Below, in pieces: positions 105 to 43,732 of a DNA stretch of 57,435 bases. The notes below the pieces were generated by a model. That model was not told where the DNA came from. It worked only from the letters and a program-made list of their open reading frames with translations, and did no database searches. The stretch is from positions 1 to 57,435 of the IMG/VR virus record IMGVR_UViG_3300000553_000045. One strand, written 5' to 3'. This DNA is from a virus. Within the stretch, counting starts at the first letter, position 1, and each line of letters begins with the position of its first letter. The position numbers and the translations under genes were made by a program.

Positions 105-3100
105 CATGGCGGCGTCTTTGGCAAGCCTGATTGCCTTGACCGGCGCGAAGTCCGAGGTATCAATCGCCTCACCAAGCCAACTTGAGTGATCGGCGTTGTC
201 CTCAATCTTGAAGCCGTTCTTGTAAAGAAGGTACTGATATGCCTTCCACTTCTCAGAAGTAAAGCCCATCTGTTTAAGAACACCCTGTGCCTGTGGACTG
301 TCGGCGAAACCTTTCGGGTCGGCAAGGCACTCTTTCCAGAGATTCATGGCGCCGTAGCCGTTCTTCGGATGTAAGACTTTAGCGGCGTCCTCCCACTTGT
401 GAGCGGTTCCCAGAGTTAAGGCATTTGCGACTCGATTCGCGACACCCTCTTTAGAAATTGTAGAAAAATGGAAACCACCGTACAACTCAGTAGAGGTTAC
501 GAGCCCTTTGACTTCGAGAAGAGCTTTGAAAAAAGGTATCTGGCGTATCTTATCTCTCGCAAGGTATCTTTCCAATTCCACCATTTCAGCTTTTGGCCCG
601 TACCATTTACCAGCTTCAGCGAACTGCGCGGCCCCCATTTTTACATCAACATTCGGGACCATCTCGCCTTTTGAATTCTCCCTCATAAGTTCATTGTCGA
701 TGGCGTACTTCTTTGCCAGTTCGCTTGTCGGGAACTGCTTAACTATTTCGCCGGCTTCATTCAGGACGTTGAAAGACTTGGCGAAGAAGGCGGGTCCGTT
801 TTCCTCAGCATTGAGAAACGGCTTCATTACCTTCGCGACTTTATCGGGGATCTCTTTCAGGTTCTTGAAATCTACCTCTTGGCCTTTTGGAATATAAGTC
901 AGGCGACCTGAATCAATCCCGTCTCTCATGTAGACAGCGGTTCTCAGGAACTTCGTATGATCAGAAAGAGAGCCTTGCAGAACCTTCCACAGATTCCACT
1001 CAGCGATATCCTTACCAGTCTTTGCCATGACATCCGAAACGCTATCTCCGGAATACTTCTTCGTGAAGCCCTTGGTGCCTTCCAGACTCGCAGAGACGTA
1101 AGGGAATGCTTCGGTATCCCCTAAGTCCTTATAAGCCACTGTGAGCATGCCGTGGTTCTCTCTCAAGGGGAAATCAGGGAATATGGTTCGGATACTTCCC
1201 GAAAACCACGTGTCGAACTCCTGACCGATCGCGAATACCTTTTTCGCAGACTCAGGGAGTTTATCAAAGTTACCGGCGCGGATATTGTCGAGAGCTTCTA
1301 TACTCGCAGTCTTACCCAACTGACCTACTTGTTTGGAAAGCGTCTGAGTACCATTCCACAGGTCTTCAGCTTTCTGTTTCCACGTCCGGCCATCCATGGC
1401 CTTATCACCCAAGACGCCCAGACGGTTTTCGATCTTCGACTTCTCGCCCTTCAAAGTCCCCATGGCTTTACGCGACTCAGGAGACTGTAGAGAGCCGGGA
1501 TTCAAAAACATCTGGATACCGTCAATCGTCTCTTTGATAAGAGGTAGTTGACGGATAGCCTTGATTGCTTCGGGGACGTGGATACCGGCGTGGAGGAGTT
1601 TGGGATCGGGCGGCTCGGCAGGGGATTTCTCCCCCACCTCACTCAGCAGGTCTTTCCGTGGACTACCTTCATGTTCTGCATCGGAACTCCGCTGTGCTTC
1701 TGCTTCATTTCCGCCGCTTCTTCCTTCGGGTTGTGCTTTGACTTCGGCTCCATCTGGTCTTCCTTGTCCATTGTCTTTTTCATTTGCGGCTCCTTTTTTA
1801 TCAGCCTCTTTGAACATATCAGGCTGTACTGATTCTTCATTCGTGAATCCATCCATCAAAGCTGAGGTATCGACAGCCTTCCCACCTTTCTTCTCGGCAG
1901 GCTTATTGAAGTCTCGCTGCGCTCCGGGGATTACTGACTGTTCTTCGCCAGAGGTACTGACCTTCTCAAATTTAGGTTCGGCAGGTTTCTCATCGCCCCA
2001 TGTGTCTGAAAATAAAGCGTCAAGTTCCTCGTCGCTTATTTCGCCCTTGGCTTCCTCTCTGACATTTTTCTCCGCTTCCGCCATCTCCCGCATGTTCTGC
2101 TCATCTTCTATTATGCGACGTGCAATTTCGCGCTGGATGGGAACAAGGTCGTCAACCGTCTTTCCTTTGGCAAGATTCTTAACAGTCGCTTGAATGTCTC
2201 CCTTGTTAAAGCTGGCTTGTGGACGGTTCGGATCACTGAAATCAAAGAGCGATGGATAGATTTGCGAAAACGTCTTTGTAAAGGTACTGTCTGTCGCAGG
2301 ACCGGCCACGCCCTTAACTTTCTGACTGTAATTATTAACAGGGGCCGTCATTATGTCGTGGAGACCTTGCCAATCTATATCGTGTCCTGAAGATACCCCT
2401 TGTTCTTTTGGAGAATCCGGTTTATCGACTGCTTTGTCTCCGGCTTTAACTTGTCCCACACTGGATGCGCCTTTATCGCTTGGAACTGTTTCAGCTTTCC
2501 TATCAGATTTACTAGAGACGCCATTTGATTTCTCCTTTAACTTCTCACGTTCAGCGGCCTGTTCCACTTTGACTTCGAGATCTTTGATCTTCTGAGCGCG
2601 TTTCCCCTTATTGACATCCTGGAGATTCACCTCTTCGCCATTCAGGGTAATCGTCTTATCGGTCTTCTTCGGTTCGGGCTTACTCTTTTCCTTTTCGAGT
2701 TCGGCCTTGACCGCTTCTACGGTCTTTTCTACCTTCGACTTTCCGCTGACAGGAGCGACTTCAGATTTCGATACAGCCGGCTTAACATCCTTCTGCCCCG
2801 ATTCATCCACCTGAGATGCTTTCTGCGCGTTCGGCTCATTGGTCGCCTCCACTCCCAGATATTTATCCTGTGGAACTTTATCGAGACTTTTTAAATGTTC
2901 GGCCAGTTCGGGAAGCGTCATCACTTTCGATTCCTTACTCTTCCCGTTTATCTCAGGAGTCGTTGTGGTGACTTCAACCTGACCTTTGTTGAGCTTCCAC
3001 TTTACATTGATATCGCCCTGTGGTGTGGTGAAGGTGCGTTCAACTCTATTGCCGATATACTTCACTGCATCGGCGGTCGCCTTCTGTTGTTCTGCGATTG

Positions 3101-4295
3101 ACTGTACCTTCTGCTGTTCTCGCTGCGCTACTTCCTGATTATGCTGTTGGACTTGAGCATCGAGGTCCGCTGTCTGCTGGGGATTTTCAAGAGACACGCC
3201 CTGTCGCGTCCTATCCGGGACCTGCTCCTGATTGCGCTCTCCCATCGGGTCCGGTCGGATCGTACTCATATCTGTAGCTGAAGGTGTAACTTCCTGATTG
3301 TCGTAGAGACGGGTATCTTGACGCGGTTCAAGGACTTCTACACCCTCTCTGGCGACAGAACTTGTAGACTCAGGAGATCCGCGTCCTTCGATGGAACCTG
3401 GAGTCTCTTTATTGAACTCCATACGAGGGGCGTTCTCGGAATCCCTTATCGGCCCAGACACGGCTTGAGGACGCGCTGTTGAATCAGTCTTAGCACCGGC
3501 ATATTCAGGATCGGCTAGGAGATCCTTATCCTTAATCGCGCCAGGGTAGTAATCCCATGTCGGGTTCTCAAGATCAGCTTTTGAAAGTTTATCCGGAAGG
3601 CGGCTTGAAAGGTCGGCGGCGACTTTCGGGTCAACACCCGCCTTGATAAGTCGCTGTCTCACAACGTCCTGGCGACCATTACCACCCTGCATAGAGAGAA
3701 GAGCGCCGGTCAAAGCGCCTGTCGCGATACTCTTTGGAGTGGCGCCGGGTTCAGCCGCCGCTTGACCAGTCATAACGGCAGTCATTGTAGCGGTCTTACC
3801 AAGGAGATCCATTGAAGAATCGCCGATGGCGTGGAAGATTTTACCAACTGCGAATCGTTCGGCACCTTTCTTAATGGCTCCGGTCACTCCGTCTTCGGCC
3901 AATCCCTGTAGAGCGGCAAGGCCAACGCCACCGACGAAGTGAGCGACACCCATTGGAGCACCACCGACCGCTCGGTAAACCTGTCCTGGAATCGACTCAG
4001 GGTCTTGACCCGCTTCAAGGGCTTTACGTTTCCAGTCTTCAGCGGATAGTTTCGCTTCTTCGGCACCAGCTTTGAAACCGCCGCCTGATTTGAATCCAGT
4101 CGCGTCAGCTACTTTTACGGCACCTTTATCCATGTCAGTAAGTACGCCCTGATTCGCCTCATTAACGCCTGCCGCCATATTCGCAAGAGTACCCTTGGCT
4201 ACGCTCTTCGTGCGCTCCCATACGGTAGGCTCTTTGGACTCTGCCTGGTCCCACACACTCATAGACTTTTCAGCTTGGTCCCAAATATCAGGCAT
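1..4295 (-). CDS. Giant virion (ejection/large polyvalent-type) protein, N-terminal 1431 codons
   Basis: The frame starts at ATG 4295-4293, overlapping the upstream gene's stop as ATGA. It runs without a stop to base 1 and continues across the circle join to a stop at 56185, giving about 1813 aa. The N-terminal third is Ala/Gly-rich with amphipathic helices. The middle (roughly residues 330-850) is a low-complexity Glu/Lys/Pro/Gln-rich stretch with little expected fold, and the rest is helical. It follows the 499-aa and smaller internal-protein genes, the usual place for podoviral proteins that leave the capsid with the DNA. The C-terminal part carries an R-N-R-D-Y-Y segment typical of large polyvalent phage proteins. 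I see no lysozyme or protease motif. The role in ejection or internal core is inferred from position and size; residue positions are approximate. Confidence 0.85.
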   Translation of the reverse strand, partial: MPDIWDQAEKSMSVWDQAESKEPTVWERTKSVAKGTLANMAAGVNEANQGVLTDMDKGAVKVADATGFKSGGGFKAGAEEAKLSAEDWKRKALEAGQDPESIPGQVYRAVGGAPMGVAHFVGGVGLAALQGLAEDGVTGAIKKGAERFAVGKIFHAIGDSSMDLLGKTATMTAVMTGQAAAEPGATPKSIATGALTGALLSMQGGNGRQDVVRQRLIKAGVDPKVAADLSSRLPDKLSKADLENPTWDYYPGAIKDKDLLADPEYAGAKTDSTARPQAVSGPIRDSENAPRMEFNKETPGSIEGRGSPESTSSVAREGVEVLEPRQDTRLYDNQEVTPSATDMSTIRPDPMGERNQEQVPDRTRQGVSLENPQQTADLDAQVQQHNQEVAQREQQKVQSIAEQQKATADAVKYIGNRVERTFTTPQGDINVKWKLNKGQVEVTTTTPEINGKSKESKVMTLPELAEHLKSLDKVPQDKYLGVEATNEPNAQKASQVDESGQKDVKPAVSKSEVAPVSGKSKVEKTVEAVKAELEKEKSKPEPKKTDKTITLNGEEVNLQDVNKGKRAQKIKDLEVKVEQAAEREKLKEKSNGVSSKSDRKAETVPSDKGASSVGQVKAGDKAVDKPDSPKEQGVSSGHDIDWQGLHDIMTAPVNNYSQKVKGVAGPATDSTFTKTFSQIYPSLFDFSDPNRPQASFNKGDIQATVKNLAKGKTVDDLVPIQREIARRIIEDEQNMREMAEAEKNVREEAKGEISDEELDALFSDTWGDEKPAEPKFEKVSTSGEEQSVIPGAQRDFNKPAEKKGGKAVDTSALMDGFTNEESVQPDMFKEADKKGAANEKDNGQGRPDGAEVKAQPEGRSGGNEAEAQRSSDAEHEGSPRKDLLSEVGEKSPAEPPDPKLLHAGIHVPEAIKAIRQLPLIKETIDGIQMFLNPGSLQSPESRKAMGTLKGEKSKIENRLGVLGDKAMDGRTWKQKAEDLWNGTQTLSKQVGQLGKTASIEALDNIRAGNFDKLPESAKKVFAIGQEFDTWFSGSIRTIFPDFPLRENHGMLTVAYKDLGDTEAFPYVSASLEGTKGFTKKYSGDSVSDVMAKTGKDIAEWNLWKVLQGSLSDHTKFLRTAVYMRDGIDSGRLTYIPKGQEVDFKNLKEIPDKVAKVMKPFLNAEENGPAFFAKSFNVLNEAGEIVKQFPTSELAKKYAIDNELMRENSKGEMVPNVDVKMGAAQFAEAGKWYGPKAEMVELERYLARDKIRQIPFFKALLEVKGLVTSTELYGGFHFSTISKEGVANRVANALTLGTAHKWEDAAKVLHPKNGYGAMNLWKECLADPKGFADSPQAQGVLKQMGFTSEKWKAYQYLLYKNGFKIEDNADHSSWLGEAIDTSDFAPVKAIRLAKDAAMLPLDYLFKEFVPSRKTISAMRSLDTYAKTYADRL

Positions 4296-39726: not shown

Positions 39727-39814
39727 CCATTGAACCGCCGGACGTGACAGGCCCGGCCATTGAGTAGTCAGCACACCACAAACCAAGGAGGAAGCGAGAC
39801 ATGAAAGCAAGTGA

Positions 39815-40681
39815 TCTGTCACAGGTGACTATGTTGATACGCCTTTTGGTGTCTCTTTGGTGTTGGCAACAAAGCACAGTGTAAAAAAAGAAATAATGGA
39901 ACTTGCATTGTACAATAACAATAAACTATACTGTACCCCGGATCACAAAATTCTGACTGAAAAGGGGTACGAAAATGCCGAGCGGATTGAGGAAAGTAAA
40001 GCGTCATGTTACGTGGACACCCGAAATGGACAGTTATTTAATCGAAAATTACCCAATAAAGTTTTTAAAGATTATCGCGGAAGAAATGGATTTAGTGGAA
40101 AGCCAAGTGTATTCAAGGATGGAACGGCTAGGACTTTCAAAGGGCAGAAGAACTGTAAAACGGCAACACTTGAAAGCAATAGAAAAATGGACCACAGAAG
40201 AATCAGCTTATTTTGCCGGGATAGTAGACGGGGAGGGTACAATTTCTTGTCAAGTCACAACCGGAAAATCAGGGAATTTGCACTTACGACCCAACATAGT
40301 AATCACCAACACATCATTGGCGCTTATGCAATACATGGAAAGCATAGGAATGACGGCTACAATCAAGAAAAATACAAACAACAAGTTGTATTGGTTGGGA
40401 TGGACAAGCGGTTTTCAGTGTCAAGATCTAATCGTAAAAATACGGCCTTTTTTGCGGATCAAACACCGGCACGCAGATATTTTGACGGAAATAATATCGA
40501 TAAGGTATCAACAGAAACTGTCAGATTTGCCGACTCAACACATCATGGACTTATTAGCAGAATTAAAGGATTTGAACCGCAGAGGATCAAGTCTTTTAGA
40601 CGACTTGAAGAGAGCAGACTTGTTGTTGACATCACTACGACCCAACAGTGTTTTATCGCGGGAACTTTTGTAGTGCATAAT
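39815..40681 (+). other. Intein (289 codons) in the VWA gene
   Basis: Block A S/C-V-T-G-D-Y-V-D-T-P-F-G at codons 1-12 (first codon TCT, possibly once TGT), block B C-T-P-D-H-K-I-L-T near codon 40. Block F/G at the end is V-V-D-I-T-T-T-Q-Q-C-F-I-A-G-T-F-V-V-H-N followed by C, the classic intein-extein border. The frame is open throughout although codons 54-286 overlap a complete endonuclease in another frame. Protein splicing is unlikely now because the N-extein is gone. Confidence 0.8.
39975..40673 (+). CDS. LAGLIDADG homing endonuclease nested out of frame in the intein (232 aa)
   Basis: Own ATG behind an AAAAGGGG site; a stop lies six codons upstream in this frame, so it is not a fused intein module. 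An N-terminal Myb/SANT-like HTH (W-T-P-E-M-D-S-Y-L ... V-Y-S-R-M-E-R-L-G-L; 13-55) is followed by a second W-T-T-E-E. One LAGLIDADG helix (Y-F-A-G-I-V-D-G-E-G-T-I, 79-90) then suggests homodimeric action. The stop (40671) lies inside the intein's last block. It would cut an intein-free allele and drive intein spread. Confidence 0.8.
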   Translation: MPSGLRKVKRHVTWTPEMDSYLIENYPIKFLKIIAEEMDLVESQVYSRMERLGLSKGRRTVKRQHLKAIEKWTTEESAYFAGIVDGEGTISCQVTTGKSGNLHLRPNIVITNTSLALMQYMESIGMTATIKKNTNNKLYWLGWTSGFQCQDLIVKIRPFLRIKHRHADILTEIISIRYQQKLSDLPTQHIMDLLAELKDLNRRGSSLLDDLKRADLLLTSLRPNSVLSRELL

Positions 40682-41678
40682 TGTGACCACGCCATAAATC
40701 ACATCATCAAAGATTCCGGTTTTTTACTGCCAAAGGGCGGTTTACTTGATCCACAATTCAGGGATATGTCAGCCGACGCGATTTATTCAAAACTACCAGA
40801 ACCGCCTAAAAACGGGCAGGGTAACGGCAAGGGTAAAGGGTCCGGACCAGCCACAGGGCAAGCAGGGAAGCCGGAAAGCGGCGATAATCCTGATCCGGGC
40901 GGTTGCGGAGCGGTTATGGACTTTCCAGGCGAAACCGGGAAGGCGACACCGGCCGAGCTTGCACAGCAGGCGCAGGACTGGCAAATTGCAGCGACCCAGG
41001 CGGCACAGGTTGCCAAGGCCCAGGGTAAGCTCCCCGGAAGCCTGTCAAGATTGATTGAAGAGTTGAACGACGCAAAAGTTCCATGGCGCGAAGTCCTGCA
41101 GCGCTTTGTTAATCAGTGCGCCCGAAACGATTATTCATGGAGACGGCCCAGCGCACGATATTTCAGCAGGGGCATTATTCTACCGAGCCTTTACAGCGAA
41201 CAGTTACCGCCTATCGTGGTAGCGGTTGACACGTCCGGCAGTATCAGTCAAGCAGACCTGCAGCAATTCGCAAGCGAAATCGATGAAATAGTGGGACAGT
41301 ATAACGCGACAGTAAATGTTTTGTATTGTGATTCCATGATTGCAGGCGAGGAGGAGTTTACACCGGAGACCCGGCCCGTCAGGTTGCATGCGAAAGGCGG
41401 GGGCGGCACAGACTTTGCGCCAGTTTTTAAGCACGTTGAAGCAATGCCGGACTCGCCAGCGTGTATCGTTTATCTTACTGATATGTGTTGTAGTTCATTC
41501 GGCGACGATCCAGGCTGCCCGGTCCTATGGGTTGCGACCGAAGGAAAGAAGCATAAAGTTCCATTCGGAGGAGTGACTTATTTGAATTGACAGACAGACC
41601 GAGCCGGAGCGTATCCCGGCTTTAATGGATTAGCAGGCGTCCCAAATCGCCGCAAACTATAGAAAGGAGACAGCGACC

Positions 41679-43219: not shown

Positions 43220-43732
43220 TTACGCGGCTTTTACGCGACCGGGATTAGTTTTGTTGTTTGCCTGTTCTTTTGGAGTTGACCATTTGCAATTTGCCGGCTC
43301 ATAGTTTCCATCATTATTTATCCGGTCAATGGACAGCCCTTTTCTCCACGCCCCTCCCATGTCCTCTAAAAAATTATCAAAAGTTGACCATCGTTCACAT
43401 ACCACAATTCCTCTGCCGCCATATCTGTGAAACCTGTTATGGTTTGGATTTCGGCATCTTGAGTGCATTTGAGACCATGACGTGTAAATTGAGGTTGTTC
43501 TCGGCCCCACCGAATGTCCATGTCTAGTGATCTTTTCAGCCGCCAATTTGCGCCTATCACAACCACAAGTAACCACTTGACCATTGCTTAGATGGACGCC
43601 CCTAACGCGCTTGACGATACCGCAATCACATCGACATAACCAAAATACTCGCCCCTGATTATCTTGACCATCTGATTGCACGACATGTAGTTTACCAAAC
43701 TGTTTTCCAGACAAATCAATAAGTTTTGGCAT
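43220..43732 (-). CDS. HNH homing-endonuclease-like protein (170 aa)
   Basis: N-terminal D-L-S-G-K-Q-F-G-K-L-H-V, C-R-C-D-C-G, then H-S-R-C-R-N-P-N. C-terminal I-D-R-I-N-N-D-G-N-Y-E-P-A-N-C-K-W-S-T supplies the HNH-like metal site. Typical free-standing homing endonuclease of phages. Sixty bases separate it from the next downstream-oriented gene, and no obvious intron is attached. Confidence 0.7.
   Translation of the reverse strand: MPKLIDLSGKQFGKLHVVQSDGQDNQGRVFWLCRCDCGIVKRVRGVHLSNGQVVTCGCDRRKLAAEKITRHGHSVGPRTTSIYTSWSQMHSRCRNPNHNRFHRYGGRGIVVCERWSTFDNFLEDMGGAWRKGLSIDRINNDGNYEPANCKWSTPKEQANNKTNPGRVKAA

Follow-up and report, generated by a model that had tools for sequence, protein, structure and literature searches.

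A phage intein family with a homing endonuclease apparently overprinted in the +1 frame of the intein DNA

Two open frames share one stretch of a viral contig

The window, i.e. the whole 57,435 bp IMG/VR contig that was analysed, also encodes an internal virion protein, a major head protein, a head-tail adaptor and a terminase. We found the following features at the locus studied here.

39785 to 39821, + strand: ribosome-binding site of the host gene (AAGGAGG, 39785-39791), its start codon (39801) and a stub reading MKASDLS, identified from the sequence
39824 to 39989, + strand: what remains of the N-terminal Hint half of the intein (block A missing), identified by alignment to complete inteins and by Pfam Intein_splicing (from profile position 42)
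39962 to 39967, + strand: AAGGGG, a Shine-Dalgarno-like site of the nested endonuclease gene; the same AAGGGG precedes the start in L045
39975 to 40673, + strand: gene of the nested LAGLIDADG homing endonuclease (232 aa), in +1 with respect to the intein frame, identified by LAGLIDADG matches and AlphaFold
39990 to 40615, + strand: intein-frame passenger, open, with no in-frame stop and no recognised domain; its equivalent in L097 is modelled as disordered
40014 to 40139, + strand: N-terminal helical domain of the endonuclease, probably DNA-binding (SANT/GcrA-like), from predicted helices, phrog_323 and GcrA
40206 to 40244, + strand: LAGLIDADG motif AYFAGIVDGEGTI; the intein frame there is RRGGYNF-like
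40622 to 40681, + strand: intein blocks F/G, VVDITTTQQCFIAGTFVVHN, overlapping the C-terminal tail and stop codon of the endonuclease
40682 to 41590, + strand: C-extein, a DUF2201 protein from Cys+1, 302 aa (Pfam DUF2201, E=1e-31)

A single + strand frame of 577 aa was found to run unbroken across the intein to a stop at 41590, confirming the first-pass annotation, which had placed blocks F/G (40622-40681) and the C-extein in one frame open to that position. Several features of a class 1 intein are present in the window: the TxxH of block B (TPDH, 39935-39946), the HN of block G, and Cys+1. Block G ends VVHN/C at 40681/40682 (the slash marks the splice junction), and the DUF2201 C-extein starts exactly at that Cys, with matches to DUF2201_N from position 89-91 and to phrog_1314 from position 101 of 394. 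The part upstream of the C-extein matched the Pfam intein splicing model with E=1e-6, below the curated cut-off. Intein-free DUF2201 homologues (L014-L028) read through the insertion site as RWNIACDHAIN, i.e. an empty site. An intron reading of the insert was rejected, as an Rfam search of the window and nine member loci gave no group I intron match. The element had no DNA match among named phages, an exact-peptide search with the whole 577-aa frame as query found nothing, and a pattern scan of genome contigs returned chance matches only.

PHROGs and several phage records label the DUF2201 family (phrog_1314) 'HNH endonuclease'. This label looks wrong because the domains are metallopeptidase-like and VWA-like. 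A second homing-type endonuclease, free-standing and with HNH PHROGs (phrog_374, E=3e-61), lies at 43220-43732 on the - strand, ~1.6 kb downstream of the element.

The nested gene runs from an ATG at 39975 to a stop at 40673. That it encodes a complete 232-aa endonuclease in the +1 frame, preceded by its own AAGGGG, had been claimed from the letters alone and was borne out by the sequence and by LAGLIDADG matches. Pfam LAGLIDADG_3 was detected in all seven endonucleases scanned, though the match of the window protein was below the curated cut-off. The AlphaFold model of the window endonuclease (pLDDT 86) matched the I-CreI and I-MsoI folds with E about 1e-8; the protein has both the motif and the fold by which a LAGLIDADG homing endonuclease is recognised. 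Helices were predicted at residues 16-25, 31-37 and 42-51 of its N-terminus, residues 12-84 matched the phrog_323 transcriptional regulator, and one family member matched GcrA.

The window copy lacks its N-extein and block A

Blocks A and B had both been assigned to 39815-39950. Block B stood, but block A proved to be absent on alignment with complete relatives, since GDYVDTPFG (39824 on) aligns ~25 residues past their Cys1. The Cys/Ser1 of block A was present in nine of nine complete aligned members and missing from the window. Profile and tblastn searches with the N-exteins of relatives (~95 aa) found no N-extein anywhere in the window contig, while the same queries scored 1e-4 to 1e-28 in each other's loci. 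The MKASDLS stub is in a different frame from the intein and does not continue into it. Either truncation or misassembly explains the window copy; a deletion cannot be distinguished from an assembly join. Without N-extein and block A it cannot splice as assembled, though the endonuclease has been kept. The N-extein is present in the complete members L029, L045 and L097.

The layout recurs in twelve relatives

Twelve independent IMG/VR contigs, all uncultured, showed the layout of the window: an intein ending HN/C or HN/S, one open host frame and a +1 endonuclease. L029 was found via a DNA pattern for the intein/C-extein junction; searches with endonucleases added L045, L049, L050, L052 and L057, then L097, L098 and L104, then L165, L166 and L169. 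The DUF2201 gene of L029 is complete: a single frame spans N-extein, intein and C-extein, and the endonuclease is in +1. DUF2201 genes were occupied at two positions (window, L029, L045 and L097 at one, L169 at the other), and so were glycosyltransferase genes (L049, L052, L104, L165 and L166 at one, L057 at the other). The host of L050 is a DegT aminotransferase gene and that of L098 was not identified. A ten-member intein alignment conserved Cys1 (except in the window), the TxxH of block B (TRDN in L057) and HN/C; the L169 intein ends HN/S. Pfam and NCBIfam intein models matched family members. In L029, L045 and L097, 71-72 intein codons precede the nested gene, and its stop lies 3-4 codons short of the intein end. 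The endonucleases of nine aligned relatives are only 21-43% identical to that of the window. Among named phages, the endonucleases of L050 and L052 had matches that were weak and partial, and not checked for a surrounding intein.

At the same insertion site, one further DUF2201 gene (L043, 4648-6815) has a LAGLIDADG intein of the ordinary, in-frame kind, in which a frameshift parts block A from the rest.

The first-pass annotation had named, as grounds for refutation, homologues with the endonuclease fused in frame and two frameshift errors in this sequence. An ordinary intein put out of frame by two compensating sequencing or assembly frameshifts would have the usual layout, which L043 shows at the same DUF2201 site, with its own frameshift near block A. 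However, the +1 phase is common to 13/13 elements, so that the shared frame expected of a bifunctional intein is not found in any of them, and the twelve homologues are stop-free in the intein frame, with intact open host frames. Nor would frameshift errors be expected to produce the stop avoidance described below (0/508). Such an artefact is ruled out by the twelve homologous elements in the same phase and is already refuted for the family; we regard it as scarcely credible.

The common phase could also be explained if the endonuclease were made by ribosomal frameshifting, as a fusion to the N-terminal part of the intein and not from its own start. The Shine-Dalgarno sequence before the nested start is indeed weak in some members (L029, L049, L097), but it is good in several others (window, L045, L052), and in most members the endonuclease frame opens merely 0-11 codons upstream of the first ATG. 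On this evidence, which includes no search for slippery sites, we consider frameshifting very unlikely and favour translation of the endonuclease from its own start.

Predicted fold of the intein and origin of the endonuclease

In the AlphaFold model of the L097 intein, residues 1-94 and 259-308 are predicted with confidence, and the passenger that separates them is disordered. The model has a Hint fold and matched mini-inteins such as Ssp DnaB, NpuDnaB and Mtu RecA. In a tree of the endonucleases, the ten overprinted ones then known were placed in a 12-row group (support 93/95), which also includes two free-standing endonucleases, L103 and L157. None of 500 shuffles left the overprinted label as clustered, but its distribution on the tree takes two changes. 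The simplest reading, which remains an inference, is that a free-standing gene whose product had a helical N-terminal domain became established in an intein and was afterwards carried along by it.

The intein frame avoids stop codons

The absence of any stop across the shared stretch had been judged rare by chance, and we estimated its probability at about 2e-8, conditional on the protein sequence and the codon usage of the endonuclease. With the endonuclease in the +1 phase, any of its codons with a final T followed by AA, AG or GA creates a stop in the intein frame. The window endonuclease was found to have T at 0/48 such stop-creating places compared with 41/132 elsewhere. For the pooled overprinted endonucleases the counts were 0/508 and 473/1661 (Fisher p=9e-64), though this p-value is not blind because the loci were noticed for their open frame. 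No avoidance was seen in 52 free-standing relatives, with T at 745/1868 (40%) stop-creating sites and 1903/4606 (41%) others; the same frame contains 2-31 stops in each of them (average 14) and is open in none. The stop avoidance and these 52 controls rule out a frame that is open by chance. The longer open frames of the window showed slight avoidance only (28% vs 34%).

Constraint on the residues of the passenger was less evident. The three closest pairs are 44-56% identical in the endonuclease frame and 19-33% in the intein frame over the same bases. An excess over the synonymous-codon null was clear for the two close DUF2201 pairs, L029/L045 and window/L097, and peaked there in the last fifth, at blocks F/G. 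It was marginal for some glycosyltransferase pairs, and the distant DUF2201 pairs had none. The middle of the passenger lies near this null, and constraint on its residues is not established. A passenger under no constraint had been proposed as evidence against the arrangement; the outcome was divided, as the frame is kept open (0/508) but no constraint on its middle is established at the residue level. The best explanation is that selection keeps the intein frame stop-free, with little regard to which residues the passenger contains.

An antisense counterpart in Gordonia phages

In tblastn searches, the L029 endonuclease matched within the MuF minor capsid gene of the Gordonia phages SchottB, Barsten, Sitar, Lennon, Nordenberg and Thing3. 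In both records that were opened (SchottB and Sitar) the match was on the strand opposite MuF. The MuF gene of SchottB holds a clear intein (CLTDPDT...AVHN/C, with Pfam Hint matches), and the Sitar record annotates an intein.

L092, 2561 to 3148, + strand: antisense LAGLIDADG endonuclease in the MuF intein of a Gordonia phage (MuF CDS 1034-4135, - strand)
L164, 3001 to 3582: antisense LAGLIDADG endonuclease in the MuF intein of a Gordonia phage

The sense members are too diverged for dN/dS, and the Gordonia antisense pair was therefore used. Between SchottB and Sitar, dN/dS was 0.11 for the antisense endonuclease and 1.22 for the intein frame that it overlaps; for the non-overlapping parts of the intein the values were 0.18 and 0.36, i.e. 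purifying selection. An intein-overprinted endonuclease is therefore under selection in cultured phages. The Gordonia arrangement is a mirror case, independent of the +1 sense family. We think it probable that inteins have acquired free-standing endonuclease genes by overprinting more than once: in the +1 sense frame, in a lineage that now occupies four or more kinds of phage gene, and, as a separate event, antisense in Gordonia phages.

The Gordonia values also bear on whether such inserts still splice. Neither block A nor the N-extein remains in the window copy, and ShiLan insertions, which resemble these elements, are believed to be retained (PMC11855218); the insert could be a retained insertion of that type, with selection acting on the endonuclease alone and the Hint parts as relics. 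However, the splicing residues are kept in distant complete members (Cys1, HN/C, and TxxH except in L057), the Hint halves fold confidently in the model, and the Gordonia intein outside the overlap is not free of constraint. We find loss of splicing very unlikely, and prefer to regard the complete members as inteins.

Free-standing family endonucleases lie antisense beside capsid-like genes at L053, L064, L086, L142, L150, L158 and L159, where long antisense open frames extend into those genes, and are possibly in introns. Around several free endonucleases, antisense open frames are common and in some cases enter capsid-like genes; none was counted as an intein.

Discussion

As the layout is repeated in twelve relatives, which occupy four kinds of phage gene, one DNA stretch appears to encode two unrelated proteins of a single mobile element. 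We assign a probability of roughly 0.85 to the reading that the window element is a member of a phage intein family with a homing endonuclease overprinted in the +1 frame of the intein DNA. It is supported by direct observation of both open frames, their recurrence, the shared phase, stop avoidance and empty sites, and by domain identities and predicted folds.

Splicing, separate translation, dimerisation, cutting and homing are inferred, without experiment. In complete members, the host gene would be translated straight through, and the two Hint halves would fold together round the long disordered passenger. The intein would then splice out of the host protein. From an internal start codon, a second protein would be made that has a DNA-binding N-terminus and a single LAGLIDADG motif. 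As an I-CreI-like homodimer, this protein might cut intein-free alleles, and recombination would copy the intein in.

Inteins usually carry their endonuclease in frame, and bifunctional inteins are usually explained by insertion of an endonuclease gene, in frame, into a mini-intein. Like bifunctional inteins of the PI-SceI type, the present elements combine a Hint domain with a LAGLIDADG endonuclease between blocks B and F and are inserted before a conserved host Cys. In contrast to these, their endonuclease has a start and stop of its own in a different frame, and two proteins would therefore come from one DNA stretch; it also has a single LAGLIDADG motif, as in I-CreI, and an N-terminal DNA-binding domain. 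Split inteins ('fractured genes') have a separate endonuclease gene between the intein halves. The present endonuclease is likewise a separate gene associated with an intein, but the intein frame is unbroken across it. The predicted fold and single motif are shared with the group I intron endonucleases I-CreI and I-MsoI, although the present enzyme is carried by an intein, not an intron, and has an extra N-terminal domain.

The closest published precedent, and the sole close one found in open PMC full texts, is the ShiLan domain, an insertion with no detectable splicing domain; in it and in the Pacc40 insertion, an out-of-frame HNH endonuclease lies within a phage methylase (PMC11855218). Here too a homing-type endonuclease is hidden out of frame in an insertion that is open in the host frame. 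However, the present family is LAGLIDADG, and most members have a complete Hint/intein; the lack of a splicing domain in the host frame that marks the ShiLan type does not apply, as the Hint halves were detected and modelled. Full-text searches of open PMC papers turned up no intein with an out-of-frame endonuclease (subscription papers, preprints and intein databases were outside the scope). The suggestion that such an arrangement was undescribed holds to that extent, although it must be qualified by the related, non-splicing ShiLan case (PMC11855218).

In Mycobacterium phage DotProduct, an out-of-frame (+1) LAGLIDADG ORF (L093, 2492-2947) lies in a DNA methyltransferase CDS (2110-4101). A splicing domain was searched for in this methyltransferase and none was found; the ORF is a LAGLIDADG counterpart of the ShiLan domain.

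These results suggest searching the other frames and the other strand of annotated 'mini-inteins' with long featureless linkers. As the Gordonia phages are cultured, the idea is testable now. The elements are a natural example of overlapping genes under very unequal constraint. They suggest another stable solution for an invaded intein: the invading gene keeps its independence, and the intein frame remains open over the length of that gene. If the reading is true, intein mobility would have a distinct mode, with splicing and homing carried out by two independently translated proteins of one DNA stretch.
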